Shown here piece after piece: positions 2,915 to 35,683 of a DNA stretch of 64,000 bases. Position numbers and translations under genes: made by a program. The stretch's first letter is position 1; every line of letters starts with the position of its first letter. The stretch is from Candidatus Zixiibacteriota bacterium. Its GTDB lineage: Bacteria; Zixibacteria; MSB-5A5; DSPP01. Below the pieces are notes generated by a model. It saw nothing but the letters and a program-made list of their open reading frames with translations, ran no database searches and was not told where the DNA came from. The stretch is taken from NCBI GenBank assembly GCA_022614805.1, contig JAKEHY010000021.1:1-64000 (forward strand), written 5' to 3'.

Positions 2915-4492
2915 TCATTTTTTACCCAAGTTCAAAGCCATCATCGGGTCTAACTGGCACAATCGGGCGAAGAGTTTTTGGGCCTTTTCCTCGGTGTCGG
3001 GGAAGGCCTTACCCTCGTCTGTCGCCTTTCCGTAGGCGCGGTAGAGAAGCATCAACCCTTCCAAAGCAAGGCGGGGCTCCCATTCCTCCAGCGAGAAACG
3101 GCCGACTTCCCGCTCCAACTGTTCCAAGTGGGGAACGGCGACCTGTGAGAGTTTGGCGTTCAGGCAAAAGCGGGCCAGGGCCAGCCGCCACATAAACTGC
3201 TCCCGCTTTTCGGTAGTGGCCTTGATTCCCTCCTGAAAGAGATTGACCGCCTCGGTTGTTTTCTTCTTCTTGAAAAGCTCCCCGGCTTTTTTCACCGTTT
3301 CCGCCAGTTTCTCGGAAGTGGCCGCCGCCGAGGGGCCGGCCGGTTCCGGCACGGAGGCGCCTCCCCCGCCGGCCAACACTTCCTTCTGAATCCATTTTTT
3401 AGTTTCGTCAGAAGCGAAGGGGGATTCGTCCGAAAACTTCAATTCCAAAAGCCCCGGCAGTCGACCGAGCAGATTTTTTAATTCCCCGAGGGCGGCGGCG
3501 CGGGCCCGGCCGTATGCCTCCCCCAAACCGTCCATCGAAAGGACGGCGTAGCGGTGCAAATCGAGCCAGAAAAGGCTTTCACTGAAATAAGCTTCGGCCG
3601 CCTCCAAAAGCTCGGCGTGGCTTCCCTCTGAAAGAAGATTTTCCCAAGCCTCCTTCGTATGCTCCGGCGGGGGGGGAATTTGGGTCAGCCCGTCCTCCGC
3701 CGGGGGAAGGTCGGCCACCTGCGACCAGACCAAAGCGCGGGTCAATTGATAAGGACGGGGGTCGGTCGGGTCGGCGGTTCTCCAGGCGGCGGCAACTAAA
3801 AGCCCCGCTTCCTGCAGGGATGGAAAAATCTCATCCGCCTGTTTTGGAGAGGTAATCTCGGCGGGAAAGCCCGTGCCGGTTGCCGTCGGGGCTGTCGTCG
3901 TCGCAACCGAAGCCGTTGCTGCTGCGGCAGGGGCCGACTTTCTTTCCAACTCGGAGGCGCGGGCGGACAAAGCCCGGCTTAAATCGGCCAAGCCCGGATT
4001 GCTTCGGGCCAGCTTTTCCTGCAAGAGAGTGGAGAGTTCCTCGAGATTGGCCTGCGCTTTTTTCACCGGCTCCAAATCGGCGGGGTTTCCCTTCAGCCTT
4101 TCCACCGCCCTCCCCCCCCTTTCCGAAAGCCAGGCGAACGGCTCCGAGCGCCCCTTGATGCGGGCGGGAGGGGGAAAGCCGGTGTCCCAGAAGTTTTTCA
4201 GCAAATCCCGGCAAATCTCCAACCCGGCCGCCAGCCCGGCGTAACCCTGGGTTTCAAAAAGCCCCAAAGCAAGGTAAGGGCCGAGCGAAAAGGTCTTTGA
4301 TTTGGCCAACAACTCGGAGGAAAGCTCCACCACCGTCCCCCAGTTCACCGGGTTCTGGTTGACCGAATCCAGTTTCTTGATTTCGTTTTTCAAGCGGTCG
4401 AGCCGGTCGTCGAAATCGACCGCTTCCCCGCCGGGGGAGTGGGGCGAGGCCGGAAGGCTCCCCAATTTCAGATAATCTGCAAGTTCAGCCAC
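2915..4492 (-). CDS. tssA: TssA, T6SS cap/priming protein (ImpA N-terminal, VasJ-type C-terminal)
   Basis: 525 residues. The first 120 match the ImpA N-terminal domain ('NWGTVVELSSELLAKSKTF..GPYLALGLFETQGYAGLAAGLEICRDLLKNFWDTGFPP'). After a low-complexity Ala/Thr linker, a VasJ-type region follows ('YQLTRALVWSQVADLPPAEDGLTQIPPPP', later 'LFWLDLHRYAVLSMDGLG', 'LKFSDESPFA'). TssA coordinates tail tube and sheath assembly and, in many systems, the distal cap. I chose the GTG at 4492: it has GGAAGGG at good spacing and overlaps the TagF stop by 8 nt. A TTG further up at 4522 is also in frame but has no ribosome site. Confidence 0.88.
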   Translation of the reverse strand: MAELADYLKLGSLPASPHSPGGEAVDFDDRLDRLKNEIKKLDSVNQNPVNWGTVVELSSELLAKSKTFSLGPYLALGLFETQGYAGLAAGLEICRDLLKNFWDTGFPPPARIKGRSEPFAWLSERGGRAVERLKGNPADLEPVKKAQANLEELSTLLQEKLARSNPGLADLSRALSARASELERKSAPAAAATASVATTTAPTATGTGFPAEITSPKQADEIFPSLQEAGLLVAAAWRTADPTDPRPYQLTRALVWSQVADLPPAEDGLTQIPPPPEHTKEAWENLLSEGSHAELLEAAEAYFSESLFWLDLHRYAVLSMDGLGEAYGRARAAALGELKNLLGRLPGLLELKFSDESPFASDETKKWIQKEVLAGGGGASVPEPAGPSAAATSEKLAETVKKAGELFKKKKTTEAVNLFQEGIKATTEKREQFMWRLALARFCLNAKLSQVAVPHLEQLEREVGRFSLEEWEPRLALEGLMLLYRAYGKATDEGKAFPDTEEKAQKLFARLCQLDPMMALNLGKK

Positions 4493-8400: not shown

Positions 8401-8851
8401 CGAAGGCGGGGAAGGAAAGGCCGGAGTTTTTCACGAGCGTTGTTTTGCCGGCCGCGGGGCGGCCGATAATCATATACCAGGGCAAAACGTAAAGGGCGTC
8501 CCCCTTGCCCCAGCGCCCCCCGCCGGCGGAGCGCTGCAACACCCGGATGGCGGCCTCTAACTTCTCCCGCAGGGCCCGGACTTCATCCTTCAAATCCGGG
8601 CGGGCCATCACCTCCTCCTCCCGGGCCTGGGTCGTCAAATACCCTTCCAGCATCTTCGATTTGCGGCGGGCGGCCAGTTTTTTAACCAAAAGGTATATCA
8701 ATGCCCCTAGAACGAAGAGGATTACCGCGAGGTAGCACCAGAAGCGGGGAATCCCCAGCATCGGCCCGATGACCAAAATCAGAATGGCGACAAGAATTAC
8801 GGCCCCCAGGGCGCCGGCCTTGGAACGGAGAAAGTTCAGAAGAAAGACCAT
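5486..8851 (-). CDS. tssM: TssM (IcmF), T6SS inner-membrane complex ATPase-like protein
   Basis: 1121 residues, the usual TssM size. Two N-terminal membrane helices (about 14-33 and 38-56) are followed by a cytoplasmic NTPase-like domain with an intact Walker A motif (GRPAAGKTT, about 130-138) and 'LLDTAGRYTAEGG' as a Walker B-like segment. A third helix lies near 442-462, after which the long periplasmic region follows, with the C-terminal beta domain that contacts TssJ. TssM spans the envelope and anchors the baseplate with TssL and TssJ. The start codon shares a base with the TssL stop and the stop overlaps tagF by 4 nt. Many TssM proteins have lost the Walker lysine; here it is kept. Confidence 0.95.
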   Translation of the reverse strand: MVFLLNFLRSKAGALGAVILVAILILVIGPMLGIPRFWCYLAVILFVLGALIYLLVKKLAARRKSKMLEGYLTTQAREEEVMARPDLKDEVRALREKLEAAIRVLQRSAGGGRWGKGDALYVLPWYMIIGRPAAGKTTLVKNSGLSFPAFDSGPESSAVRGFGGTRNCDWWFTNEGILLDTAGRYTAEGGAADQAEWNAFLGMLKKARKKAPINGLVLAVGFDELLSRDDVEAEARLLRGKIDELIGQLGFIFPVYLVFTKCDLLHGFVDFFGDLGKKERDEVWGMTFKLYEERRLPVYKEFEEEFDQLYASLAARRNALLGMEKNSQEKQGAYLFPLEFQEIKSKLVRFVDILFESSRFRQDPAVRGIYFTSGTQGEGTVIDAVIGKMSEEMGVSGKLRELLQPATQPKAYFIKELFQRVVLFDRHFAAPSVKAGKKTKYFRLAAVWGQLLLGLGILSAVLVSFFKNQGELKTTYQEARRVRAIGANPMTALENLAPLFRRLEKLDRWEEGWSPLSLHWGLYSGKKANREARMQFLEKLRYALLVPSHNHFQDYLSDTMRALTDLDRYSNIFTAYRMLSEKYDPANQSGILAAEIWEYWKASHAIPPERQEEWQRMLYDQVAYYWKHRADEELEEKIISPNRTIMRLAEEVLKPRFGPKQFYHRLLAQAGARLPALRVEDLVPSGQLLQGNSLPGAFTRKGWEEVVSALFEKSPEEMEKDPILKANVERSGVDIRQELKRLYREDYRNQWKTFFAGVKVGPFVDLEDAIGKIGKLASGNSELFEFLQNSLERGELKGDDFEKQVASDFAILSDLLKGELKGREDKPIRDNYLEGDLAELSKRMQEGAESLKGKTSCGGGLQSLVNKVASLRDYATRGLVWDALGTKEFLQKPFEASKEAAFADACRCLNEVWEEKIRTPFTSDLAARYPFSLGEDAPVARVESFLGRTEGGILWFEEKEIRPAREEGMLFSPEYDSLAARVKNLFSGDAMGLLFTLEGDAKNFRAVSGRGVVQEALFTLGSQPPFAYRMGMRIPWEFVWKPGEPGCELALKVQGFRCEPKTFSGPWALFRLFDEATLEAGRAAWDFDCGGFTCRAEYGLKGDFLERGHFKALKLPEKICP

Positions 8852-9603
8852 TACAGGTTTTTAATCTGCTCGGCCCAGTGGGAGGCCCGGCCCGAAAGAA
8901 TGAATTTCAAAACCAAAAACAGGATGAACACCACTCCGCCGACGAGGGCGGTTATTCCCCAGACGGGGAGCTGGCGGGAGGCCGCCTGCAGAGTCTCTTC
9001 CGGCGGGCGCCAATGGGGGGACAGCTCTCCTCCCGAACCGCGCAAAGCGCGCAGCTCCCGGCCGAGCTGGTTTATCAAGGGAGTAAGTTCGGTGGGATTG
9101 AAGGCGTACTTCCCTTCGAATCCCAAAGCAAGACAGATGTAATAGACCTCCAAAAGGGGGGCTTTTTTCTGCCCCTTCAGGCGGGTCTCCTCCAGCTTGT
9201 TGAAGAACTCGTTGCCGGCGATGTTTTCGCCGAAAAATTCGAGCGCCAACGGGTGTTCCCACCACTCCCCCTTGACGAGCCAGTCGGAGCGGGAAACCGT
9301 TTCGTCGATGACTGCCACGAGGGCGTATTTGGCGTCGTGCAAATCGTCGGGGGAAAACCCTTCCGCCAGTCCCTCCTTTTCCATCCGGGCAAAAAGCCCG
9401 CCGATTTTGGCGCGCAACTCCTTCGGGTCGCCGTAGTTTTTGCTTGTGGCCAAGGTCAAAATCAGGGAAAAAACCGGCGCGTACAAATCGGCCAAGCTTT
9501 TGCCGGTGGAGGCGGGCATCCCCCCGCGGCGGAGTTCTTCGACGTTTATCTGGCGGGTTTTGAAGCGGTCGCCGGCCCGGCCAGGGGCGGAGCGTTCCTC
9601 CAT
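8851..9603 (-). CDS. tssL: TssL (DotU/ImpK), T6SS inner-membrane protein
   Basis: 250 residues. The DotU-type cytoplasmic domain covers about 35-190 ('LADLYAPVFSLILTLA', 'DLHDAKYALVAVIDETVSRSDW', 'WWEHPLALEFFGENIAGNEFFNKLEE', 'LEVYYICLALGFEGKY'), followed by one C-terminal membrane helix near 214-236. It is the short form without a C-terminal OmpA/peptidoglycan-binding domain, so cell-wall anchoring must come from another protein if it occurs. It starts directly next to the tssK stop (no gap) and its stop shares a base with tssM. TssL is the hub through which TssK docks the baseplate on the membrane complex. Confidence 0.93.
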   Translation of the reverse strand: MEERSAPGRAGDRFKTRQINVEELRRGGMPASTGKSLADLYAPVFSLILTLATSKNYGDPKELRAKIGGLFARMEKEGLAEGFSPDDLHDAKYALVAVIDETVSRSDWLVKGEWWEHPLALEFFGENIAGNEFFNKLEETRLKGQKKAPLLEVYYICLALGFEGKYAFNPTELTPLINQLGRELRALRGSGGELSPHWRPPEETLQAASRQLPVWGITALVGGVVFILFLVLKFILSGRASHWAEQIKNL

Positions 9604-10953
9604 TTATTTCCCTACCGCAATCAGTTCAACCGCAAATCCCGGAAACTGCCGGGGGGGGGCGTAAATGGAAACCGCTTTGGCTTCCCGGATGAAATCCCAG
9701 CGGTCCCCCCGGGCGTCCAGCCGGAAGTAAACCAGCCCGGCCTTGCGGGGAATCACCGCCGGAGGCAGGGGGATGAAATTCAACGCGACCCCCGGCAGGT
9801 TGCCGCCCACCAGCCGGGCGATTTTGTCCGGCGAGATGATTTTGGCCTGCAGGGGGAATTCCGCTATCAGACGGCTTTCCGGAATTTCGGCCGTAACCCC
9901 GAGATAGAACTGGGCCGACTCCAAAAGGCCGCCATCGGCGATCGCGCCTTCGTACATCGATTCATCCTTGCGCACGAGAGGAATTACGGTATAACGCTCG
10001 GAGACGACCACTTCGAGATACTGGCGGATTTTTTTGTCCAACTCGCCGAAAAGCTCCCCCAGCTCCTCGTGGCGGTATGGAGGGAGGGCGCGGGGCTGGG
10101 CCCCGACGTTGAAGGTCGCCAGAGCCCCCGTCAGGCGGACGAGTTCCAGATAAAATTGAACCGGATGGATTTCAGGATGATTGTAAAAGTGGGCCAAAGT
10201 CGGTATAAAGGCGTTGACCGTCTGCAAGAGCAGAAAATTGGGAAAATCGGTGGTGGAGAATTCCGCCATCTGCGGCGTGCGCTGGCGGACTTTTTCCGTC
10301 AGGGCGTTTGATTTCGCCGCCAGCAACTCCAGATGCCCCCGGGCCAGGTTGACGAGATAGTCGGATGCCAAAAGCGAAAGGGCCGGGGGAATGTAGCTTT
10401 CGCGCAATTGCAGAACGCCCGTGGCGGCCCGCTCCACTTCGGCTATTTTTATGTAGTCGAAACCTTCGAGGTTGTCGCCGGAGAAAAGAATTTTCAGCCC
10501 CTTTTTGGCGTAGGCGACCTCCCGCTCCCCCTCGCCGGTGACTTCGTCCGGCAGGGAGACGAACTCCCGTTCGTAGCGGGTCTCTTTGGAATTTGCCTCC
10601 ATTTTCACCCCCGCCGCGCCGGGACGCAGGACGGGAAACCCCAAATAGACGGAGAGAACATCCGCGCCGGGGCCGAAGCTCCCCTCCATCGAACGGGTTT
10701 CCGGCGGGGCATCCACCGCCGGGATGCGGACGGCGCTGCCGTCCGGGAAAATCCCTTCGAGTTCCCGCAGCGTTAACAACTTGTTGGCAACCGCCTCCCG
10801 GTCAATCGTCAACTTCCAGACCCCCCAGGCAAAAGGGGCCAGGGAGCGGAGCTGGAAGGTGACGTTTTTTTCGTGGTAGCGGTCCCACTGCTGGAAATGG
10901 TGCTGGGTTAGAAAAAGCCCTTCGCTCCAGAGAATTTTGTGGTATTGGGGCAT
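9604..10953 (-). CDS. tssK: TssK, T6SS baseplate adaptor
   Basis: 449 residues starting MPQYHKILWSEGLFLTQHHFQQWDRYHE, the diagnostic TssK N-terminus ('W.EGlfL.pQHFQ..dry'). The remainder follows the family: shoulder domain, trimeric helical stalk and a C-terminal head that contacts the TssL/TssM cytoplasmic domains in known systems. An in-frame extension upstream would overlap most of tssJ in another frame and is rejected. The ATG lies one base after the tssJ stop and the stop abuts the tssL ATG. Operon order J-K-L-M is that of many T6SS clusters. Confidence 0.94.
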   Translation of the reverse strand: MPQYHKILWSEGLFLTQHHFQQWDRYHEKNVTFQLRSLAPFAWGVWKLTIDREAVANKLLTLRELEGIFPDGSAVRIPAVDAPPETRSMEGSFGPGADVLSVYLGFPVLRPGAAGVKMEANSKETRYEREFVSLPDEVTGEGEREVAYAKKGLKILFSGDNLEGFDYIKIAEVERAATGVLQLRESYIPPALSLLASDYLVNLARGHLELLAAKSNALTEKVRQRTPQMAEFSTTDFPNFLLLQTVNAFIPTLAHFYNHPEIHPVQFYLELVRLTGALATFNVGAQPRALPPYRHEELGELFGELDKKIRQYLEVVVSERYTVIPLVRKDESMYEGAIADGGLLESAQFYLGVTAEIPESRLIAEFPLQAKIISPDKIARLVGGNLPGVALNFIPLPPAVIPRKAGLVYFRLDARGDRWDFIREAKAVSIYAPPRQFPGFAVELIAVGK

Positions 10954-10954
10954 A

Positions 10955-11449
10955 CTATTTCTTGGGTGGCAGTTCGATGGTGTTTTTGGGGACGTAGAAA
11001 GCGGCTTTGCCTCCCCCCGCTCCCAGTTTGACGTAGCGCCGCTCCTTGGAGCCGTCCGGCGGGCGGTTGAAATTCCCGATGACCGCGAGATAAACCTGGC
11101 CGGTCGCCGCTTTCGCTTTGCTGTAGGTGATGGTGACCACCTTTTTCTGGCCGGGGTCGAGGGTGATTTTTTCCATCGCCAGCGTGTCTTCGGAAAAGGA
11201 GTTCCAAAAGGTTCGCTGTTGTTTGAGTTCGAACAAGTCGGCGATGCTTCCCTGCATAAACCGCTCCGGCGCATTCAAAACGAAGGCGCGCACCTCGACC
11301 GAATGCACCCCTCCCTGTTCGTCCCAGTTCAGGCTGTCGGCCCGGCTGGAGAGGGTCAAAACCGCTTTGCCGCTGCCCCCTCCCTTTTTGACCACGCCGC
11401 ATCCGGCGGCGACTACTCCCATTAGTAAAACGACCGTGAGTTTTTTCAA
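10955..11449 (-). CDS. tssJ: TssJ, T6SS outer-membrane lipoprotein
   Basis: 164 residues. A short signal peptide ends in a clear lipobox (VAAGC, lipidated Cys17). The mature part has the TssJ beta-sandwich pattern: an early 'AVLTLSSRADSLNWDEQG.....VEVRAFVLN' strand pair, a 'DLFEL' motif, and a 'TLDPGQKKVVTITY' turn, ending with strands that carry 'GQVYLAVIGNFNRP'. TssJ sits on the inner leaflet of the outer membrane and binds the C-terminus of TssM. Its presence argues for a true diderm envelope. It is separated from the upstream gene by about 144 nt holding a dispersed repeat, so it may head its own transcript. Confidence 0.9.
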   Translation of the reverse strand: MKKLTVVLLMGVVAAGCGVVKKGGGSGKAVLTLSSRADSLNWDEQGGVHSVEVRAFVLNAPERFMQGSIADLFELKQQRTFWNSFSEDTLAMEKITLDPGQKKVVTITYSKAKAATGQVYLAVIGNFNRPPDGSKERRYVKLGAGGGKAAFYVPKNTIELPPKK

Positions 11450-11481
11450 CTTACTCCTCCCTCGTTAGTTGTTGAAAAGTA

Positions 11482-11553
11482 TTTGACCCCACCCTCCGGC
11501 CACCGCCTTTGGCGGCGGCCTGAATCCCTCCCCTTTAGGGGAGGGAAAAGCAG
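11482..11553. repeat. Dispersed TTGACCCCACCC intergenic repeat, copy 2
   Basis: Starts ATTTGACCCCACCCTCCGGCC, has a GCC-rich central palindrome (CACCGCCTTTGGCGGCGG) and ends TCCCTCCCCTTTAGGGGAGGGAAAAG. It is the same family as 2806-2878, 20295-20391 and 52062-52132, with a different centre. It separates the tagH-like gene from tssJ, so both larger gaps of the T6SS operon contain this element. Confidence 0.7.
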
Positions 11554-11593
11554 CGCAAGGTGAGCGGAAAATGCTGAATTGGTCCTCGAAATA

Positions 11594-12265
11594 CTATGCA
11601 CTTTTATCCTCTTTCGAACCCGGTCGGGATGCCATAAAGCCGATGTAGCCCTGGCGGAAGTGGGGGCGGAAGCGAGCCTCCAACTGCTGTTCTTCCTGTT
11701 GCAAAAGTTCTTCGTATCTTTTGTGAAACTCCTTCCAGAGCCGTTTATGCTTAAACGGGGAAAGCTTGGAGGCGATGCCGCCGTTCGATAATTCCTTTTC
11801 GATTAGCTCGGGGTCAACTTTTTTAAGAAGCTCTTTTGTCCCTTCCTTAACTGACGTGCGAAAGCCGGACAAAAAGGCGAGCTGGTGGTATTTCAGTTCG
11901 TTTAAGGCCTTGTCCAAATCCTCGGCGGCTCCGACTTCGGCGTTTTCCCAGTTGAAAAGATAGGGGCCGATTTCCTTCTCCCTTTCCTCCACCCGGAAAA
12001 TCTGGGTGCCGGAGGAGGGGCCGGAGGCGAACATGGCGTATTGTTTTTGGAAAAGTTTGCGCCCGCGCAAAAGTTCCTTGAATTCGCGCAGCATTACGCT
12101 TACGGAATATTTCAGCCGAAGGCAGAAAGTTTTGATTTCTTCCGGGCGTTCGAATTGCTTCTTGTCGCCAATCAGGTAATTGGAGAGGGCCACCAACTGG
12201 TCGTAGGCGGCTTTGTGCAATTCCGATTGGTCTTTTTCGGCTGTTTCTTTTTTTTCTTCTTCCAT
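11594..12265 (-). CDS. TagH-type protein: T6SS FHA-associated C-terminal domain without an FHA domain
   Basis: 223 residues from the ATG at 12265. The central and C-terminal parts match the C-terminal domain of TagH/ImpI FHA proteins: 'LREFKELLRGRKLFQKQYAMF', 'IGPYLFNWEN', 'ALNELKYHQLAFLSGFRTSVKEGTKELLKKVDPELIEKEL', 'WKEFHKRYEELLQQEEQQLEARFRPHFRQGY'. In that family the N-terminal FHA domain reads threonine phosphorylation to switch on the T6SS. Here residues 1-60 are a short acidic helix with no FHA fold. The frame continues upstream to a TTG at 12385, but that stretch is repeat-like DNA (GACCCTTCG...CGAAGGGTC) and is probably untranslated. It is probably the first gene of the T6SS operon and a regulator or scaffold. 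Confidence 0.72.
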   Translation of the reverse strand: MEEEKKETAEKDQSELHKAAYDQLVALSNYLIGDKKQFERPEEIKTFCLRLKYSVSVMLREFKELLRGRKLFQKQYAMFASGPSSGTQIFRVEEREKEIGPYLFNWENAEVGAAEDLDKALNELKYHQLAFLSGFRTSVKEGTKELLKKVDPELIEKELSNGGIASKLSPFKHKRLWKEFHKRYEELLQQEEQQLEARFRPHFRQGYIGFMASRPGSKEDKSA

Positions 12266-12277
12266 TACCGCTGTCAA

Positions 12278-12355
12278 CTCGCCAAGAGTCCCTCGACTAC
12301 GCTCGGAATCTATGACCCTTCGTAAAAGCGAAGGGTCTTCGACCAAACTAAAAGC
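12278..12355. repeat. Hairpin repeat upstream of the TagH-like gene
   Basis: Contains CCCTCGACTACGCTCGG, a phrase also found at 50104-50120, and a perfect hairpin GACCCTTCG-TAAAAG-CGAAGGGTC. It lies in frame with the TagH-like gene but has no protein-like pattern and resembles the intergenic repeats of this genome. It may lie in the 5' leader of the T6SS transcript. Confidence 0.45.
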
Positions 12356-12462
12356 CCCTCCGGTTGCGCATTCCAATTGCTCCAAGCTACCCTTACCAAT
12401 GTTCTTTTAAGTTAATATGAAGCAAAAGATTGTCAACTTGTTAATTGGGAGGGACGAAAAAA

Positions 12463-12615
12463 GGGCGAACGCCGTTCGCCCCTACGAAAACACCTCACCC
12501 CTCTGCCCCCTCTCCATAAATGGAGAGGGGGAATGGGCACCCGTACAGGTGCCCCTACGAGAACACCCCCTCCGGCCTTACGGCCTCGTCCCCCTTAAAT
12601 ACAGAGGGACAGGAA
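12463..12615. repeat. Cluster of palindromic intergenic repeats
   Basis: A perfect 19-nt palindrome (12463-12481, GGGCGAAC...GTTCGCCC) and a second hairpin (12535-12554, GGGCACC...GGTGCCC) are each followed by CCTACGA. Between and after them are CACCCC/CTCTCC...GGAGAGG and CTCCGGCCTTACGGCCTCGTCCC stretches related to the dispersed repeats. The gap 12386-12639 holds no convincing gene. Confidence 0.65.
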
Positions 12616-12639
12616 GGCGGGATAAAAAGCCGGAGATGT

Positions 12640-13047
12640 TTACTTCCAACTATCCCCCGCCTTCCTCACGTAATTTGCCCAAACATAGGGCCAAGGAATA
12701 ACTATAGGCATTATAACAATTCCCCATAAGCAGGCCTTGACGGTTTCCCAGGTTTCCGGGTCGATTTGATGGGCTCGCCAGAGCGGGGGCGCAAATGCGA
12801 TTAACCATATCGACTTCCAAACCAGTTCGAAGAGAAGCAAAGGGAGCATTTTCAGCGGATATCGAATTCCCAAAGCCGCCAAAACCGACACGCCCGCCAG
12901 TAAGCAGGAGACGACGCTCTGCATTAGCGGCCACGCTTTTGTGTGGTGGATTACTCCAGGCCATACCATGAATGTGAGCCCCACGGCTATAAGCAGGTAG
13001 GTGGCTCTCAATAGATACAGGCGGAACGTTGATACGTCTTCAGACAT
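12640..13047 (-). CDS. Small four-helix membrane protein of unknown function
   Basis: 135 residues, ATG preceded by AGAGGAGCC. About four hydrophobic segments are visible (near 12-32, 40-62, 66-90 and 103-125), the last ending 'VIPWPYVWANYVRKAGDSWK'. I do not recognise a named family, although small DoxX-sized membrane proteins with a 'WP...PYVW' ending occur in many bacteria. It is divergent from the AT-rich genes to the right and separated from the T6SS genes by about 370 nt of repeats, so it is probably a single-gene unit. Membrane location is supported by composition only; no function is proposed. Confidence 0.65.
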   Translation of the reverse strand: MSEDVSTFRLYLLRATYLLIAVGLTFMVWPGVIHHTKAWPLMQSVVSCLLAGVSVLAALGIRYPLKMLPLLLFELVWKSIWLIAFAPPLWRAHQIDPETWETVKACLWGIVIMPIVIPWPYVWANYVRKAGDSWK

Positions 13048-13136
13048 TGGGCGGCTCCTCTCTTTAAGAAGTTATTCGGATCCATTTGGAAACAGATACG
13101 AAAGCTGGAGTTCAAGGGTTCCGCTTTTGTTTGGAG

Positions 13137-13300
13137 ACCTAACCCCCGGCCCCTTCCCGACACGGGAAGGGGAGTAAAAAAAGTTTAGCCCAGGGGTTCG
13201 GGATAAAAAGCCGCCGGAGGCCTTGTCGAAGACCCCGAGCGGCTTGTCCCGAAGCTTGTCGAGGGAAGTCGAGGGGAGCTTGTCGAAAGGGGGGCTAAGC
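13137..13300. repeat. Composite repeat: GGCCCC hairpin plus TTTAGCCC...GGGCTAAGC element
   Basis: A CCCCTTCCC-GACAC-GGGAAGGGG hairpin is followed by a segment running from TTTAGCCCAGGGG (13184) to GGGGGGCTAAGC (13289-13300), the same two ends as the element at 20428-20487. The inside holds several CTTGTCGA / TCGAGGGAAGTCGAGGGG units. The 336-nt gap 13048-13383 contains only this and the leader of the next gene; a minus-strand reading frame here is repeat read-through, not a gene. Confidence 0.6.
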
Positions 13301-13383
13301 GGCAGTATGGATTTGACTATCCGAAGCACAATCTTTAGCTTGCTTCCGCAAGGTGGGGCAGGAATCCTCACAGAAAGGAAGTA

Positions 13384-13740
13384 ATGAAACAATTAACGAG
13401 TGATGAAATCGGTAATCTTTCATCCGAAAAAGCCGAGGAGATAATTCATGATTTTGGGGTATTTATGCAACAATCTACGGGATTCTGTTTCGAATCGGAT
13501 TTGCCTTGGAACAAAAGCGCCATCTTAGCCGCCATTCTTCATGCCCTTGAGGATGAAAGAGACCGTGAGATGACACGTGCGCTTCATCTTGCAATTATTT
13601 GGTTAAACAATGTTATTCCCGATCGTGAAAAATATGAATCGTTGGCGGCAATCTATCCAAAGGTAAAACAAATAGACAAAGACATACGTGCGGGTATGAA
13701 AGTTGATAAAATATTAGAAAAATATAACACCAAAAGCTGA
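13384..13740 (+). CDS. Hypothetical protein in AT-rich island
   Basis: 118 residues, ATG preceded by AGAAAGGAAG. The sequence is soluble and mostly helical ('ILAAILHALEDERDREMTRALHLAIIWLNNVIPDREKYESLAAIYPKV'), with no signal peptide, membrane segment or motif I recognise. The gene is clearly more AT-rich than its neighbours, with AAA, ATT and GAA codons favoured, unlike the GC-rich T6SS and pur genes. It shares a similar leader (pyrimidine-rich, GGGGCA/CGGGCC, then CAGAAAGGAAG) with the next gene, suggesting that both arrived together. The lack of homology signals leaves its role open; a toxin-antitoxin or defence accessory role would be speculation. Confidence 0.6.
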   Translation: MKQLTSDEIGNLSSEKAEEIIHDFGVFMQQSTGFCFESDLPWNKSAILAAILHALEDERDREMTRALHLAIIWLNNVIPDREKYESLAAIYPKVKQIDKDIRAGMKVDKILEKYNTKS

Positions 13741-13853
13741 CCTAAAAATTCAAGTTCATTTGTAGTAGAATAATACCCGCTTGACCGTTACCAATTCAGA
13801 ACTTTAACTTTCGCTCCCGAAGGTCGGGCCATGTACCCACCAGAAAGGAAGAA

Positions 13854-14699
13854 ATGCTGGATGATGCCTCATTTGTAAAGGTATTAGGGAGTGCTCTGAA
13901 CGTTTCGAAACAAACAACAGAACAATCATGCACAAGAGGTCAACGAGAAGGGTCGCTCTTCCTCTTAAAAAATTGCTTGTCGGGGCTGACCCTATTTAGA
14001 ATCTTCAATCCAACCGATTTTTCGGAATTTCCTCAAGTTGGGCCAAGTTTCAAAGTTAATGATTTTCCAACGGCTTACGTTATAATTCGCACCATGTTTG
14101 AAACTTATATTAACATGTATTACGTACTAATTGAACCAAAACGTGAAGCCGAAAAGGAGCATCGATTGGATTTGTGGGAATGTCACGGATATGCTCAAAC
14201 ATTGATAATGGGCAAAACGTTTGGACTCCAAGATGACGCGCTAAAAGTAACTGAAGGCAACTACCGACAAATTAAGAAAAAGATAATATCTTCAGATTTC
14301 TATAAAAGCTTGTCCAAAAAGAAAAAGGAATCTATAAAAGCCGATGAATGGAACCCAAATGTAAACAAAGTTGCGTTGGCCATTCGAAGTGGCTTCCACC
14401 CAACACAAGCTAGATTCTTTTATAAATTTCTTTCAAATTATGCTCACTCTGAAAGATATTCACTGATGCAGATGGGTGAGGTGAAATCACCTCAACATTC
14501 TGAAGGACTGCTCAATAGCTTCCCCAAGACATTTGCCGAAATGCTATTGGCCTTAACTGTAAATGCCTTTGCAAAAATGTATAGCCCCGCAATGGATTTG
14601 ATTGCCAAAGACGAAGAACTTTTAAAAATTCTTAACGGATGGGAAAAAGCAAAGAGGAAAGATTTTACTAAATGGGATGATGAGTTAGTTAAATACTAA
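13854..14699 (+). CDS. Hypothetical helical protein, possibly DUF5677-like, in AT-rich island
   Basis: 281 residues, ATG after CAGAAAGGAAG. The protein is helical and soluble. The patterns 'AYVIIRTMFETYINMYYVL' (an R....E motif in a helix), 'KFLSNYAHSERYSLMQ' (an 'S..AH' motif) and a hydrophobic C-terminal helix resemble uncharacterised DUF5677-type proteins, whose R/E and His positions recall HEPN-like folds; I cannot confirm this. Base composition is AT-rich, like the previous gene and unlike purD to its right. The two genes lie 113 nt apart and are probably transcribed separately. Possible accessory or defence gene, unproven. Confidence 0.55.
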   Translation: MLDDASFVKVLGSALNVSKQTTEQSCTRGQREGSLFLLKNCLSGLTLFRIFNPTDFSEFPQVGPSFKVNDFPTAYVIIRTMFETYINMYYVLIEPKREAEKEHRLDLWECHGYAQTLIMGKTFGLQDDALKVTEGNYRQIKKKIISSDFYKSLSKKKKESIKADEWNPNVNKVALAIRSGFHPTQARFFYKFLSNYAHSERYSLMQMGEVKSPQHSEGLLNSFPKTFAEMLLALTVNAFAKMYSPAMDLIAKDEELLKILNGWEKAKRKDFTKWDDELVKY

Positions 14700-14730
14700 C
14701 AGTATAGTAATTGAAGAATGCCCAATTTGC

Positions 14731-14759
14731 TTGCCTTTCAGTTCTCAAAAACCTATCAT
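14731..14759 (+). promoter_or_regulatory. Predicted sigma70-type promoter for purD
   Basis: TTGCCT (14731-14736), a 17-nt spacer and TATCAT (14754-14759). The purD ATG follows only 9 nt after the -10, and no Shine-Dalgarno is present, so the mRNA would have almost no leader. Confidence 0.45.
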
Positions 14760-14768
14760 TAAAATTGA

Positions 14769-16064
14769 ATGAAAGCCGAGGATTTGAAGGTTTTGGTGGT
14801 GGGGTCGGGGGGGCGGGAGCACGCCTTGGTCTGGAAACTTTCCAAAAGCAAAAGAATCTCCCATTTATATGCGGCGCCGGGCAATCCGGGGATGAAGGGG
14901 CTGGCTCAGCTGGTTCCCATTTCAACCAAAGATACCTATATGCTGGCCGAGTGGGCCAAGCACGAGGAAATCGACCTGACGGTGGTCGGCCCGGAACAGC
15001 CGCTGGTGGATGGGATGGTGGATGAATTCGAAGCCCGCCGGCTGGCCATAATCGGGCCAACCAAGCGGGCGGCGCAACTGGAAGGGAGCAAGGCCTTCGC
15101 CAAGGAATTTATGCGCCGGAACAACATCCCCACGGCTTCGTTTCAGATCTTTACCGACACCTCCGAGGCCTTGGATTTTGTGCGGGAGGCCAATTATCCG
15201 CTCGTGATAAAAGCGGACGGACTGGCGGCGGGGAAAGGGGTAGTGGTTGTGGATTCGGTTGCGGAAGCGGAGGAAAAGATAAATCAATTTCTATACGAAG
15301 GAAAACTGGGGGAAGCGGGAAAGCGAATCGTGGTGGAAGAATTTTTAAACGGCGAAGAAGTGAGCGTGATTGCGCTATCGGACGGGCGGCACGTCAAAAC
15401 CTTGATTCCAGCCATCGACCACAAACGGCTTTTGGACGGCGACCGGGGACCGAACACCGGCGGGATGGGGGCCTGCGCGCCGGCCTTCTCCCTCATCCGG
15501 GAACGCCAGCTTCCGGTAATCGAGGAGGAAATTTTAGAGCGCACCATCTGGGGAATGTGGCGGGAGGGGATTCCGTATAAGGGATTTTTGTACGCCGGCT
15601 TGATGCTGACGGAGCGGGGGCCGAAGGTCTTGGAATTCAACTGCCGTTTGGGAGACCCCGAGGCGCAGGCGATTTTACCCCTTCTCAAAACCGATTTGAT
15701 GCATATATTTGAGGCCCTGTTGGATGGAGAGCTGGACGTGATAAATCCGGACTGGGAGGAAAAACACTGCGCTTGCGTGGTGCTTGCCTCCGAAGGATAC
15801 CCCGAAAATCCGCACACCGGCCGGGAGATTTCCGGCTTGAACGGCTTGGAGGGGGTTTTGCCCTTTTTTGCCGGCGTTGCGGAAAAAGGGGAGCGCTACT
15901 ATACGGCCGGGGGGCGGGTGGTCGGCCTGACGGCCGTGGATGCCGATTTTGACAAGGCCTTGAACAAAGCGTATGCCGCCGCCGAAAAGGTGAACTTTGA
16001 AGGGAAGCAGTACCGCCACGACATCGGCTACCGGCTAACAGCGAAAACCAGAGTGGCGCGGTGA
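14769..16064 (+). CDS. purD: Phosphoribosylamine-glycine ligase (GARS)
   Basis: 431 residues. It joins glycine to phosphoribosylamine with ATP, the second step of purine synthesis. The N-terminal domain begins 'LKVLVVGSGGREHALVWKL' and holds 'AAPGNPG' and 'TVVGPEQPL'. The ATP-grasp domain (about 105-330) contains 'ADGLAAGKGV', 'VVEEFLNGEEVSVIALSDG', 'GDRGPNTGGMGA' and 'EFNCRLGDPEAQ', the metal and ATP ligands. No fusion to PurM or PurN. There is no ribosome site before the ATG. It overlaps purE by 4 nt (GTGA). Confidence 0.95.
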   Translation: MKAEDLKVLVVGSGGREHALVWKLSKSKRISHLYAAPGNPGMKGLAQLVPISTKDTYMLAEWAKHEEIDLTVVGPEQPLVDGMVDEFEARRLAIIGPTKRAAQLEGSKAFAKEFMRRNNIPTASFQIFTDTSEALDFVREANYPLVIKADGLAAGKGVVVVDSVAEAEEKINQFLYEGKLGEAGKRIVVEEFLNGEEVSVIALSDGRHVKTLIPAIDHKRLLDGDRGPNTGGMGACAPAFSLIRERQLPVIEEEILERTIWGMWREGIPYKGFLYAGLMLTERGPKVLEFNCRLGDPEAQAILPLLKTDLMHIFEALLDGELDVINPDWEEKHCACVVLASEGYPENPHTGREISGLNGLEGVLPFFAGVAEKGERYYTAGGRVVGLTAVDADFDKALNKAYAAAEKVNFEGKQYRHDIGYRLTAKTRVAR

Positions 16065-16552
16065 AACCGGAGGTTTTAATTTTAACCGGCAGCGAAAACG
16101 ATTTGGAAGTGATGCAGGAGACGGTCAAGGAATTAGAGAAATTTGGGATTGGCAGCCGCATCATCGTTTCCTCGGCTCACCGCGACCCGGAGAAAACCGG
16201 ACGGATTCTGCGCCGGGCGGAGCGTGACGGATATTCGGTCGTGATTGCCGCCGCGGGGATGGCGGCTCATCTGGCGGGCAAGGCGGCGGCAGAAACGGTT
16301 TTGCCCGTGATTGGGGTGCCGCTCAACTCCTCCACTCTGGGGGGGCTCGATGCGCTTCTTTCCACCGTGCAGATGCCTTCCGGGGTGCCGGTGGCGACGG
16401 TTTCCATCGGCAAAAGCGGGGCCGTGAACGCCGCCTGGCTGGCGGTACAGATTTTATCGACACGGGACAAAAAGCTTCGGGAACGGCTCCGCCGGGAGCG
16501 GAGTAAAAAGAGAGAGGAACTGCGCAAGAAAGCAGGGAGGAAAAATGCGTAA
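16061..16552 (+). CDS. purE: N5-carboxyaminoimidazole ribonucleotide mutase, PurE
   Basis: 163 residues from a GTG overlapping the purD stop. Shows 'LTGSENDLEVMQETVKELEKFGI', 'SSAHRDPEKT' (the active-site His segment, usually SAHRTP), 'VVIAAAGMAAHLAGKAA', 'VIGVPLNSS' and 'LLSTVQMPSGVPVATV'. PurE moves the carboxyl group to make CAIR in purine synthesis. The SDSD motif of class I PurE is altered to TGSEND, which still provides polar contacts. Class I PurE needs PurK, which is not in the window. The last residues form a Lys/Arg-rich tail. Confidence 0.9.
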   Translation: MKPEVLILTGSENDLEVMQETVKELEKFGIGSRIIVSSAHRDPEKTGRILRRAERDGYSVVIAAAGMAAHLAGKAAAETVLPVIGVPLNSSTLGGLDALLSTVQMPSGVPVATVSIGKSGAVNAAWLAVQILSTRDKKLRERLRRERSKKREELRKKAGRKNA

Positions 16553-17300
16553 ACTGATACTTTTGACCGTTCTTTTAACCTTTTCAATGGCCCTGGCCCA
16601 GGCCCCTACGGACGAGGCCAAAAAGCAATTCAACGCCGGGGTGGAAGCGGATAAGGCGGGAAAGACGGATGCGGCAATTGCCGCCTACGAGGCGGCCTTG
16701 AAGGCCAGTCCCAACTATCCGGATGCCCACCGGAATCTGGCCGCCGCCTACCAGCATAAAAAGGAGTATGCCAAGGCCCTGCCGCATCTGGAGGCCGTGA
16801 CGGATCAAAAAAGCGCGGACAACCTGAATGCCTTGGGGGCTTTGGCGGTATTGGCCAAGGATTACCCAAAGGCGGTGGCCTCTTACGAAAAGGCGTTGGT
16901 TGTAAAGCCCAACGACCCCAAACTGATGATGGGTTTGGCGGAGGCGTACAAAAAAGACCGGCAGACCGCCAAGGCGGTCGAAACCTACAAAAAGGTGATG
17001 GCCACGGACCCCAAAAACGCCACCGCGCGCTTTAACCTGGGAAAGATATATTACGACGACCAGGAATACGTGCCAGCGGAGGGGGTTTTCAAGGAAATGA
17101 TGGCCAAATTCCCCAACGACCACCGGGGATACTATATGTACGCCCTTTCGGTCCATTCGGAAGACCCGGAGAACGTGGAGGCGTATCAGCCGTTGTATGA
17201 AGAGGTAATCAAACGCTTCAAGGGGAACGCCCGAGCGGCCGCCAACGTGAAGGCGGCGGAAAAAGTAATCGACGAAATCAAAAATCCGAAGAAAAAGTAG
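16545..17300 (+). CDS. Exported TPR-repeat protein
   Basis: 251 residues with a cleavable signal peptide (about 1-18, 'LLTFSMALA'). The mature protein is built of about five tetratricopeptide repeats ('AKKQFNAGVEADKAGKTDAAIAAYEAAL...', '...YPKAVASYEKALVVKPND', '...QTAKAVETYKKVMATDPKN', '...YVPAEGVFKEMMAKFPND'). TPR proteins in the periplasm act as scaffolds for complexes. It overlaps purE by 8 nt and abuts lemA, so it is translated from the purine transcript. The specific partner is unknown; the neighbouring LemA protein suggests an envelope role. Confidence 0.85.
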   Translation: MRKLILLTVLLTFSMALAQAPTDEAKKQFNAGVEADKAGKTDAAIAAYEAALKASPNYPDAHRNLAAAYQHKKEYAKALPHLEAVTDQKSADNLNALGALAVLAKDYPKAVASYEKALVVKPNDPKLMMGLAEAYKKDRQTAKAVETYKKVMATDPKNATARFNLGKIYYDDQEYVPAEGVFKEMMAKFPNDHRGYYMYALSVHSEDPENVEAYQPLYEEVIKRFKGNARAAANVKAAEKVIDEIKNPKKK

Positions 17301-17867
17301 ATGGGGCTTTTCTTCTTAATCATAATCCTCCTTTTCGTCGTCCCCATCATCTGGCTTGTTGCCGGCTACAACCGGCTGGTGCGGTTCCGCAATGCGGTCG
17401 ACCGGGCTTGGGGAAAGGTGAAAGTGGTTTTGACCAAACGGGCCGATTTGATTCCCAATCTGGTCGAGACGGTGAAAGGGTATGCCGCCCATGAGAAAAA
17501 CGTTTTCGACCGGGTTTCGGAGGCCCGTTCCAGATTCCTGTCCCCCTCTCCTTCAACCGAGGCCGTGAGGCAGGGTGTGGAGTTGGAAAAATCGTTGCGC
17601 TCGCTTTTGGCGGTGGCGGAAAACTATCCAAATCTCAAAGCCAACGAGAATTTCCAGGCCCTTTCCAGCCAGCTTGCGGCCGTCGAAACCGAACTGGCGG
17701 AGGCGCGGGACGGTTTTAACGCGGACGTTTTGGATTACAATAACCGGCTCCAGACTTTTCCCGGAAACCTGATAGCCAACCTTTTCGGGTTTGAAAAGCG
17801 GGACTTCTTTGAACTGGAAGCTCCGGCAAAAGCGGGGGTGCCCAAAGTTGAGTTTAAAGTTTCTTAA
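17301..17867 (+). CDS. lemA: LemA family membrane protein
   Basis: 188 residues. One N-terminal membrane helix (about 2-21) is followed by the LemA helical domain: 'YNRLVRFRNAVDRAWGKVKVVLTKRADLIPNLVETVKGYAAHE', then 'VAENYPNLKANENFQALSSQLAAVETELAEARDGFNADVLDYNNRLQTFPGNLIANLFGF'. The 'R.DLIPNLV' and 'YN..L..FP' signatures are typical. LemA proteins are inner-membrane anchored with a periplasmic or extracellular helical bundle; no clear biochemical role is established. The ATG directly follows the TPR stop. A terminator follows at 17902. Confidence 0.93.
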   Translation: MGLFFLIIILLFVVPIIWLVAGYNRLVRFRNAVDRAWGKVKVVLTKRADLIPNLVETVKGYAAHEKNVFDRVSEARSRFLSPSPSTEAVRQGVELEKSLRSLLAVAENYPNLKANENFQALSSQLAAVETELAEARDGFNADVLDYNNRLQTFPGNLIANLFGFEKRDFFELEAPAKAGVPKVEFKVS

Positions 17868-33029: not shown

Positions 33030-33707
33030 ATGAAAACACAAAGGACACTTAAAATCATCCGGTTCTGTCTTCCGGGGGTTCTGGCGGCAGCGTGGTGGGG
33101 CACGACCCCCCACGCCCAGGAAAAACCAGCGGCGGTACTTCTTTGGCAAAACGGCGGAATCGGGCAGAAAGAAGAACTTACAGATGGTTTAAATTCTTCT
33201 CAAAGACCAAAAGTTCAGAATCTGAAATCGGAAAATAAGGCTTTAGCTTTGTCTCTTTTGGGCTCATTAATTCCTGCTACTGTTGGTGTCACCTCCGCCA
33301 TAGCTATGCCAGCGGGTGTGGCTCCGGTACCTGGTGCCGAATCAGACGCATGGAAGAATGTTGGATTGCTCGTTGGATACAGCGGACTTATTGTCGGGCC
33401 GTCGCTCGGGTACTTTTATGCGGGCCAGGTCAGGCGCGGTCTGGTCGGTGTAGGAATTAGGGTCGCTTCAGGGGCCGCCCTTGTACGTGGATTGAAAATC
33501 TACAATGATGGTGGCAGTGACTTTGGCACAGCGCTCTACTCGCTTGGATCGGTATTTCTGCTTTACTCCATCATCGATGATATCACTTCGGTAAAAGGAG
33601 TGGTTCAGAAACGTAACCGCTCCCTGCAGGAAAAAACCGTAACCATCACTCCGACCTACTTTGCCCAGCACGGTGCGCCGGGCCTGAAAGTGCAACTGCA
33701 ATTCTAA
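33030..33707 (+). CDS. Exported protein of a local tandem family, copy 1
   Basis: 225 residues with signal peptide ('FCLPGVLAAAWWGTTPHAQ', about 12-30). The mature part has 'NLKSENKALALSLLGSLIP' with a hydrophobic stretch, then a glycine-rich 'GPSLGYFYAGQVRRGL', further hydrophobic segments and a C-terminal 'KRNRSLQEKTVTITPTYFAQHGAPGLKVQLQF' region that ends in Phe. I do not recognise the family. The order 'KS..KA...S...P / GYFYG...RG' resembles small DUF5683-like envelope proteins, weakly. GAAAGGAGCAGAAAA precedes the ATG. Three relatives follow in the same unit. Likely an inner- or outer-membrane protein. Confidence 0.7.
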   Translation: MKTQRTLKIIRFCLPGVLAAAWWGTTPHAQEKPAAVLLWQNGGIGQKEELTDGLNSSQRPKVQNLKSENKALALSLLGSLIPATVGVTSAIAMPAGVAPVPGAESDAWKNVGLLVGYSGLIVGPSLGYFYAGQVRRGLVGVGIRVASGAALVRGLKIYNDGGSDFGTALYSLGSVFLLYSIIDDITSVKGVVQKRNRSLQEKTVTITPTYFAQHGAPGLKVQLQF

Positions 33708-33724
33708 TGGGAAGGAGCAGAAAA

Positions 33725-34318
33725 ATGAAAAGAACACTTAAAATCATCCAGTTCTGCCTTCCGGGAGTTCTGGCGGCAGCGTGGTGGGGCACAACCCTCC
33801 ACGCCCAGGAAAAACCAACCCTGTTTCTTTGGCAAAATGGCGGAATTGGGCAGAAAGAGCAGCGCGCAGATAGTGTAAACATCTTTCAAAAAATGGATGC
33901 CTTGAATCTGAAGTCTGAAACAAAGGCATTCAACTGGTCTCTTTGGGGCACGCTTGCCCCATCAGCTACACTTATCCTTTTGCCCGTTGGGCTCTGGGTG
34001 GGCCCTTCCATGGGATATTTCTACGGAGGTATGTCAGGAAGGGGATGGATAGGAATTGGAATCAGAACCGCTGGAATGGCCGCAGCGGTACCTGCCTTTA
34101 TTTCGGGTTGGGACGGTCTGAACCCTGATGGCGCGGCTCAGGCTCTTGCTACAGGAGGAGCGCTTCTGTTTTGGGGTTCCGCGATCTACGATATCGCCAC
34201 GGTTAAAAGCGCCGTGCGTAAGCACAATCGCTCGTTGCAGGAAAAAGCCCTGACCATCACCCCGGCCTATTTCGCCCAGCACGGCGCGCCGGGCCTGAAG
34301 GTGCAAGTGCAATTTTAA
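33725..34318 (+). CDS. Exported protein of a local tandem family, copy 2
   Basis: 197 residues, started at the ATG at 33725 with GGGAAGGAGCAGAAAA before it; the ATG at 33707 would encode only the ribosome site. It shares the leader ('LKIIQFCLPGVLAAAWWGTT') almost base for base with copies 1 and 3, 'NLKSETKAFNWSLWGTLAP', 'GPSMGYFYGGMSGRGWIGIGIR' and the C-terminal 'KHNRSLQEKALTITPAYFAQHGAPGLKVQVQF'. It is shorter than copy 1 in the segment between the SLxG and GYFYGG motifs. It is part of the run 33030-36903. No function known. Confidence 0.7.
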   Translation: MKRTLKIIQFCLPGVLAAAWWGTTLHAQEKPTLFLWQNGGIGQKEQRADSVNIFQKMDALNLKSETKAFNWSLWGTLAPSATLILLPVGLWVGPSMGYFYGGMSGRGWIGIGIRTAGMAAAVPAFISGWDGLNPDGAAQALATGGALLFWGSAIYDIATVKSAVRKHNRSLQEKALTITPAYFAQHGAPGLKVQVQF

Positions 34319-34334
34319 CGGAAAGGAGCAAAAA

Positions 34335-34994
34335 ATGAAAACGCAAAGCATGCTTAAAATCATCCGCTTCTGCCTTCCGGGAGTTCTGGCGGCAGCGTGG
34401 TGGGGCACAACCCTCCACGCCCAGGAAAAACCAACCATACTCCTTTGGCATAACGGCGAACTGGGGCAGAAGCAGCAATTGTTGGACTCCTCTTTTTCAA
34501 CACCAAATAGGATTATTCCCGACCCGAAATCGGAAGGGACGGCTGTAGCCTTGTCTCTTGGCGGTACGATTGTGCCAATCACACTTGGTTTGGTCGTTGC
34601 GACTCAAGGCCCCAACGACGCGGGTATCGTTCCAGGAGTTGTATTAATGGGCAGCGGGGTGGTGTTCGGTCCCTCACTGGGATACTTCTACGGAGGGCGG
34701 CCGGGTCGCGGCCTGTCTGGAATCGGAATCCGGCTCGGCTTATCTGCGGCCACACTTGGCGCGACGTACATAGCCGGGACTTCGACTGATGGCTGGGATG
34801 GGCTGGATAGGGCGGCCGTCGCTTTCTTTATCGGTTCCGGTGTCGTCGCCGCGGCAGCCGTTGCGGACGTCCTCCTGGTACCGAAGGCCGTCCGCAAGCA
34901 CAACCGTTCCCTGCAGGAAAAGGCCCTGACCATCGCGCCGGCCTATTTCGCCCAGCACGGCGCGCCGGGCGTCAAAGTGCAAGTGCAATTTTAA
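34335..34994 (+). CDS. Exported protein of a local tandem family, copy 3
   Basis: 219 residues, start after GGAAAGGAGCAAAAA. It has the common leader ('LKIIRFCLPGVLAAAWWGTT'), 'DPKSEGTAVALSLGGTIVP', 'GPSLGYFYGGRPGRGLSGIGIRLG' and the C-terminus 'KHNRSLQEKALTIAPAYFAQHGAPGVKVQVQF'. Two hydrophobic stretches flank the glycine motif. The GYFYGGRPGRGL segment is also in the fusion protein at 35734. Intervening residues vary strongly between copies while the two ends stay fixed, consistent with selection on the ends or with gene conversion. Same operon as its neighbours. Confidence 0.7.
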   Translation: MKTQSMLKIIRFCLPGVLAAAWWGTTLHAQEKPTILLWHNGELGQKQQLLDSSFSTPNRIIPDPKSEGTAVALSLGGTIVPITLGLVVATQGPNDAGIVPGVVLMGSGVVFGPSLGYFYGGRPGRGLSGIGIRLGLSAATLGATYIAGTSTDGWDGLDRAAVAFFIGSGVVAAAAVADVLLVPKAVRKHNRSLQEKALTIAPAYFAQHGAPGVKVQVQF

Positions 34995-35011
34995 TGGAAT
35001 GGGGAAGAACA

Positions 35012-35683
35012 GTGAAAACCCAAAGAAAACTATTAGAAGGACTCATTCCAATTTTGATGGGGTTATTGCTGTCCGCCTGTGCCGAGAAGCCCACCATTTC
35101 GAAAACTCCCTTGATAAGGGAGGTCATAGTAACACCCAACGCTCTCACCCTCTACGAAGGTCGCTATGGTCACCTGCGCGGAATGGAGGAGGATGGGTAT
35201 GGTGTCAGTCTTGTCTGGACAAGCAGCGATTACGCGGTGGCAGATGTTTGGGGCCCGGACGACGGCTGGGCGGTTTGGAATACTTGGTATAATTGCTGCG
35301 GCGAAACTGCCACGGTGAAAGGGCTCAAGCCGGGGACTGCTCGTATTTACGGCTCTTGGCAGTATACTGCGCCCGAGGAGTTGACCGGGCACTGTGACGT
35401 TACCGTCCTGCCGGTGACGGCTCGAAGAATCGACATCTCGCCCGATACGCTCACTGTAGCGGCAGATAGCTTCAGGTGGATATCTATCTTTGTATATGAC
35501 AGCGTAGGCGTTGAACTGCGGCGCACGCTTTACTTGCGCGCGTTGGACCCGACCGTTGCTACAATTAGCGCATCTGAGTTGTTGGATTTAACAACAGTTT
35601 ACGGACACAATCGAGGGCAGACGTATGTCTTTGCATATACCGATGGAGGGCTAAGTGACTCCTCGCTGGTCATTGTGGAGTAA
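35012..35683 (+). CDS. Lipoprotein with Ig-like (BIG2-type) repeats
   Basis: 223 residues from the GTG at 35012 with GGGGAAGAAC before it; the upstream ATG at 34994 overlaps the previous stop but has no ribosome site and lengthens the signal. The lipobox is LLSAC (Cys23). Two Ig-like modules are seen: 'REVIVTPNALTLYEGRYGHLRG...VSLVWTSSDYAVADVWG...ATVKGLKPGTARIYG' and 'RRIDISPDTLTVAADSFRWISIFVYDSVG...LDPTVATISAS'. BIG2-like domains mediate adhesion or surface assembly. It sits between paralog copies 3 and 4, so it likely belongs to the same envelope function. Confidence 0.75.
   Translation: MKTQRKLLEGLIPILMGLLLSACAEKPTISKTPLIREVIVTPNALTLYEGRYGHLRGMEEDGYGVSLVWTSSDYAVADVWGPDDGWAVWNTWYNCCGETATVKGLKPGTARIYGSWQYTAPEELTGHCDVTVLPVTARRIDISPDTLTVAADSFRWISIFVYDSVGVELRRTLYLRALDPTVATISASELLDLTTVYGHNRGQTYVFAYTDGGLSDSSLVIVE

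Follow-up and report, generated by a model that had tools for sequence, protein, structure and literature searches.

Related leaders before unrelated AT-rich genes in a variable slot between T6SS genes and a purD-like gene of a Candidatus Zixiibacteriota bacterium

The described systems closest to the locus reported here are integration hotspots and integron gene cassettes, together with the protein family DUF5677 (PF18928). With integration hotspots the locus shares conserved flanks, accessory content that differs between two species, lower GC and an IS-type element, the last in a second genome of the same genus (G001). As in integron gene cassettes, several small and unrelated genes all point the same way and follow an upstream signal that stays fixed. 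DUF5677 is represented by the second of the two genes considered below, which scores above the Pfam cut-off and carries the conserved R and the Y...LS.YAH stretch. On the locus itself, nothing was found in the literature listings and abstract openings that we consulted.

The locus lies in a stretch of 64,000 nucleotides (the window) from a Candidatus Zixiibacteriota bacterium. A first-pass annotation had described two AT-rich genes with near-identical leaders, and had proposed that each gene came as a cassette with its own upstream cue, from a common source. The features of the region are as follows.

12640..13047, minus strand: gene for a small membrane-type protein of 135 aa, an ORF of the left flank whose DNA is conserved in G001 (contig C54)
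13133..13305, no strand: interspersed host repeat between the membrane gene and leader 1, missing from the matching G001 interval; right limit set by eye
13313..13386, plus strand: leader 1, with TTGACT, CTTTAGCTT, a hairpin-forming segment, CAGAAAGGAAG and ATG; a related leader has the equivalent position in G001
13384..13740, plus strand: gene 1, an ORF for an orphan protein of 118 aa
13781..13856, plus strand: leader 2, with TTGACC, CTTTAACTT, a hairpin-forming segment, CAGAAAGGAAG and ATG, recognized by alignment to leader 1
13854..14699, plus strand: gene 2, for a divergent DUF5677 protein of 281 aa, recognized by its PF18928 match
14729..14768, plus strand: upstream region of purD and right edge of the variable slot; identity with G001 starts at 14729
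14769..16064, plus strand: purD-like gene of the right flank, an ORF with 89% protein identity in G001

Both plus-strand reading frames were confirmed, and their composition differs from that of the flanks as first described. The segment 13384-14699 has a GC content of 38.5% (gene 1, 0.384; gene 2, 0.381), against 55.4% for the whole window, and is the most AT-rich of 627 segments of 1316 bases taken at steps of 100; GC3 is 0.35 in gene 1 and 0.36 in gene 2, against 0.70 for purD. To the left lie T6SS genes with the families DotU, VasE and FHA C-terminal (window 8851-12385), which are conserved in G001 and have no match in the same-order genome G002 when compared at the DNA level. The 135-aa membrane-type protein has no Pfam family. 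Host interspersed repeats with many scattered matches in G001 occur at window 12450-12530 and 13133-13188, the latter (query 4283-4338) matching several scattered contigs. The right-hand gene we take to be purD, of purine synthesis, a name that an earlier reader had also given. A promoter-like TTGCCT-17-TATCAT occurs upstream of it, within 14729..14768, in a consensus scan that gave 4 sites against 3.9 expected.

The slot was delimited by comparison with G001, which is 99% complete; only these two species of the genus were compared. Both flanks are kept in G001, the T6SS genes and the membrane gene on the left and purD on the right. The left flank is found in contig C54 as three pieces of 75-80% identity (window 8851-11473, 11603-12446 and 12640-13132), of which the membrane-gene piece (query 3790-4282) is at 75%, and the right flank in contig C24 at 82% (window 14729-17311). 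Conservation breaks off on both sides of genes 1 and 2, and neither gene has a match anywhere in G001, which confirms that both are accessory. Before purD, contig C24 has three other reading frames with 34-46% GC in most 200-base blocks; in Pfam, searched at E up to 0.1, two of them had no family and the third had a sub-threshold match. An accessory slot is defined by flanks that stay the same while the genes between them differ in a close relative, which is seen here against one relative whose two contigs are unjoined. Because C24 (L051) and C54 (L135) each end in a piece that we take to be IS3-type and transposase-like, it is only by inference that the C24 frames and the G001 leader described below, on contigs that were not assembled together, belong to one slot.

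Neither gene belongs to the core of the phylum, and an origin as core genes of similar composition does not apply. Gene 2 matches PF18928 over residues 71-207 (E 1.2e-9) with 38.9 bits against a cut-off of 27.1, a low score for a family whose best members in the group reach 106 bits; its identity to 8 aligned relatives is 15-23%, with the conserved R and the Y...LS.YAH stretch in register. To judge by the conserved R...E / Y..LS.YAH pattern, it may be an all-helical accessory protein, possibly HEPN-like. Of 129 genomes of the phylum, 38 have a DUF5677 match (31 above the cut-off), and the family's genes fall below the GC of their flanks in 22 of 24 measured loci, the window included, a count that covers DUF5677 genes alone. 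The gene 1 family is present in 3 of 146 genomes of the group, the 2 relatives among the 145 others being in G035 and in G099, which is of the same class; the one relative in genome_contigs lies on the same contig as that of G099. No family was found for gene 1 in Pfam, PADLOC, PHROGs or NCBIfam. Its closest relative (L057 1943-2299, on the same contig as L021) has an inner TAA stop and may be decayed or carry a sequence error. Structure models of the two proteins were poor (pLDDT 35 and 65); that of gene 1, a low-confidence model at pLDDT 65, suggests a helical protein and gave nothing below E 3.9 in Foldseek. Relatives of either protein were absent from plasmids, phages and viral_contigs, and none with a solved structure was found, a sole match at E 0.23 being disregarded.

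The leaders of the two genes are alike, and the likeness is real yet less exact than first described. Local alignment gave a score of 42 with 44 of 57 columns identical (77% with gaps), which none of 5000 dinucleotide shuffles reached (null mean 14.3, maximum 29; Gumbel p ~2e-8); a separate run gave 0/3000 and p ~1e-6, or 2e-4 when the SD was left out. Without gaps, however, identity is 35/56, and over a longer stretch that includes TTGAC it is 53/76; the term near-identical was too strong. When the SD segment (CAGAAAGG onwards) was cut off, the score fell to 25, as high as in 3 of 5000 shuffles. Part of the likeness is the ribosome-binding segment and the remainder is modest; AGAAAGG precedes ATG at five places in the window, two of them leaders 1 and 2, and the leader SD resembles other host SDs. 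Among 1326 pairs of upstream regions, taken from 52 mechanical ORFs of the window, the leader pair ranks sixth, and three of the pairs above it are neighboring ORFs at 33.7-35.7 kb. At that place (window 33707-35683), three adjacent plus-strand ORFs, probably tandem paralogues, have strongly similar upstream regions (local scores 115-149); Pfam has no family for them or for the ORF at 33030-33707. The leader similarity stops at ATG. On the 5' side it extends farther by reading, to TTGACT (13313) and TTGACC (13781), each 20-21 bases before CTTTA, and the order common to both genes is TTGACY, CTTTARCTT, a hairpin-forming segment with AAGGTSGGGC, and CAGAAAGGAAG. The two leaders are direct repeats on the same strand, 470 bases apart.

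A third leader was detected in G001 (L135:150-229:-), on contig C54, upstream of the membrane gene and about 92 bases away from its start. It has ATTTGACTA, GGCAGGAATC and CACAGAAAGGA in common with leader 1, to which it aligns over 52 of 73 columns with a score of 44 (0/3000 shuffles, p ~1e-8; ~6e-5 without the SD). Its likeness to leader 2 is weak (score 19, 44/3000 shuffles, p 0.012; 550/3000, or 0.13, without the SD). Behind it stands an unrelated short reading frame, cut by an IS-type element that is presumably IS3-type. The interval from membrane gene to leader is about 264 bases in the window against about 92 in G001, and the extra ~170 bases are partly interspersed repeat. Leader 1 and the G001 leader are most simply read as orthologous, with different genes behind them. 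Because G001 has a leader at the equivalent position and the reading frame behind it is a different one, leader 1 seems to belong to the locus and not to have been imported with gene 1; from its alignment, leader 2 is a relative of leader 1.

Between conserved flanks, then, related leaders stand in the same place before different, accessory genes. The explanation that we favor, with a probability of roughly 0.6, is that a promoter/5' leader resides in the locus, that accessory genes are exchanged behind it, and that it is present twice in the window. The stretch from the membrane gene to purD would be a variable accessory-gene slot, and its leader would have been at the locus already in the common ancestor of the genus. 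It would now precede an unrelated, IS-cut frame in G001 and the orphan gene 1 in the window, while leader 2 would be a copy of it placed before the DUF5677 gene. As a promoter/UTR, the leader would consist of the TTGACY element and a short 5' UTR, in which a hairpin is followed at once by a strong SD and then the start codon; a scan for promoters gave no standard one at leader 1 or leader 2, the -10 hexamers being poor. Because the leader stands a second time before gene 2, equivalent signals probably drive the expression of both genes. How genes are exchanged, like any RNA regulation, we infer: incoming genes may have been joined to the leader by ordinary recombination, homologous or illegitimate, and not by a dedicated recombinase. 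Among the weak points of a resident leader are that leader 2 has only slight direct likeness to the G001 leader and that the SD accounts for part of the likeness among the leaders.

It is also possible, though we consider it unlikely, that two mobile cassettes came from one outside source, each with its own leader. Two AT-rich, accessory genes with similar leaders whose likeness ends at ATG fit such an origin, and to this extent the first-pass proposal holds: each gene has a related leader and a distinct composition. The arrival of a leader with each gene is not supported, however: in G001 the equivalent place has a leader although the gene behind it is another one, and no leader was seen before the relatives of either gene. 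The upstream stretches of 9 DUF5677 relatives were read and contained none. R1, a covariance model built from leaders 1 and 2, had 0 matches at E up to 1 over 42 loci of gene relatives, a weak negative since R1 missed the G001 leader. The exact core of leaders 1 and 2 was likewise unmatched in genome_contigs, by a pattern that would not pick up the G001 leader either, and three stretches with a relaxed core in viral_contigs (IMG/VR) were judged after reading to be chance. With R1 and the genome_contigs pattern both missing the G001 leader, more copies in relatives are possible.

An equal, small probability is given to partial tandem duplication, in which the ancestor had a single leader, a 470-base stretch (the leader and what followed it) was doubled, and replacement or decay of the gene bodies came afterwards, without any leader-specific exchange. 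The repeats are direct, on one strand and 470 bases apart, and the genome has no other copies. BLAST of each leader against its own genome, at E up to 10, recovered only leaders 1 and 2 and short matches of 14-19 bases, although a copy as near to leader 1 as that of G001 would get an E of 2e-4 in a genome of 2.5 Mb; the idea that the leader recurs elsewhere in the genome thus found no support. Over 468 kb of this genome and 390 kb of G001 (overlapping loci), a profile built from the three leaders together recovered the leaders themselves and no other match below E 0.8. Against duplication, genes 1 and 2 are unrelated in family searches and no duplicated remnants were seen outside the leaders. 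It differs from the favored explanation of a resident leader mainly in the order of events.

Several candidates for further leaders were rejected. Three of the 14-19-base matches in the same genome, once read, were not leaders, and the third-best R1 match there (E 1.1), before an efp-like gene, has only the SD in common. Across 129 genomes R1 gave a single further match (G062, E 0.042), which reads as a piece of some longer sequence and lacks the features of a leader. Leader 2 matched five places in four other genomes among 98 relatives (E 0.003-0.035), all without the SD-ATG arrangement. Two other leader patterns had 0 matches in outside collections, and when both leaders were compared with plasmids, and leader 2 with phages, BLAST returned only short matches with E of at least 0.6.

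Clustering of such genes with defence genes was looked for as well. With E up to 1 allowed, neither protein matched any PADLOC family. The neighbors of 19 DUF5677 loci (98 ORFs) included 12 PADLOC families with one member each, against 134 families with at most 3 members each among control ORFs (99/118); both counts are crude, as PADLOC matches general kinases and ATPases, and they show no excess near DUF5677 relatives. No link to defence genes was seen. Nor do the two genes travel together, as toxin-antitoxin or effector-immunity pairs do: both genomes with a gene 1 relative lie outside those with a gene 2 match, G035 being without a DUF5677 match and G099 absent from the 38 genomes that have one.

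The folding of the leaders was also analyzed. A hairpin ends just before AGAAAGGA in leader 1, leader 2 and the G001 leader, and in leaders of 52-54 bases the SD GGA is mostly paired (unpaired 0.001, 0.14 and 0.06, respectively). Adding 30 coding bases opens the SD of leader 2 (0.70), and extension by 20 bases on the upstream side opens those of leader 2 (0.51) and the G001 leader (0.42), only leader 1 staying closed; an unpaired value of 0.15 or less is also found for 21% of 235 control starts. Folding z-values are -2.6, -0.4 and -2.0 for the three leaders, and bottom-strand DNA folds are weak (z -0.7 and -0.8). Leaders 1 and 2 differ at two pairs changed on both sides, counts that were matched by 129 of 500 shuffles, and simulations produced compensatory changes of this kind at a rate of about 5% (1029 and 867 of 20000). 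An Rfam scan of 12400-15000 gave 0 matches at E up to 1. The least probable of the explanations is not claimed here, namely a leader kept as a cis-acting RNA switch (a thermometer, or responsive to a ligand or protein) that hides the SD: the paired GGA of the short leaders, the shared hairpin and the two-sided changes speak for it, but the pairing depends on context in leader 2 and the G001 leader and is matched by 21% of the control starts, the z-values are uneven, the compensatory changes come up by chance at about the 5% level and Rfam has no match.

If genes are repeatedly joined to a resident leader at the start codon, their expression would begin as soon as they are gained, a simple route by which a poorly studied bacterial group could domesticate incoming genes; if the leaders are merely a local duplication, the locus is an ordinary variable slot. 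A bolder version, which we regard as doubtful and slightly less probable than the cassette or duplication origins, is a promoter/UTR capture point of about 70 bases, where unrelated incoming genes become attached exactly at their start codon and whose module is copied each time, giving an integron-like array, without integrase or attC, of genes that are expressed independently. Compared with the described systems, gene 2 is a low-scoring and distant DUF5677 member. Unlike in integron gene cassettes, each gene here has its own leader with the SD directly before ATG, and Rfam is empty across the region. Set beside integration hotspots, the locus is an ordinary kind of variable slot that is unusual in one respect, namely that the unrelated genes within it share a short and probably resident leader.
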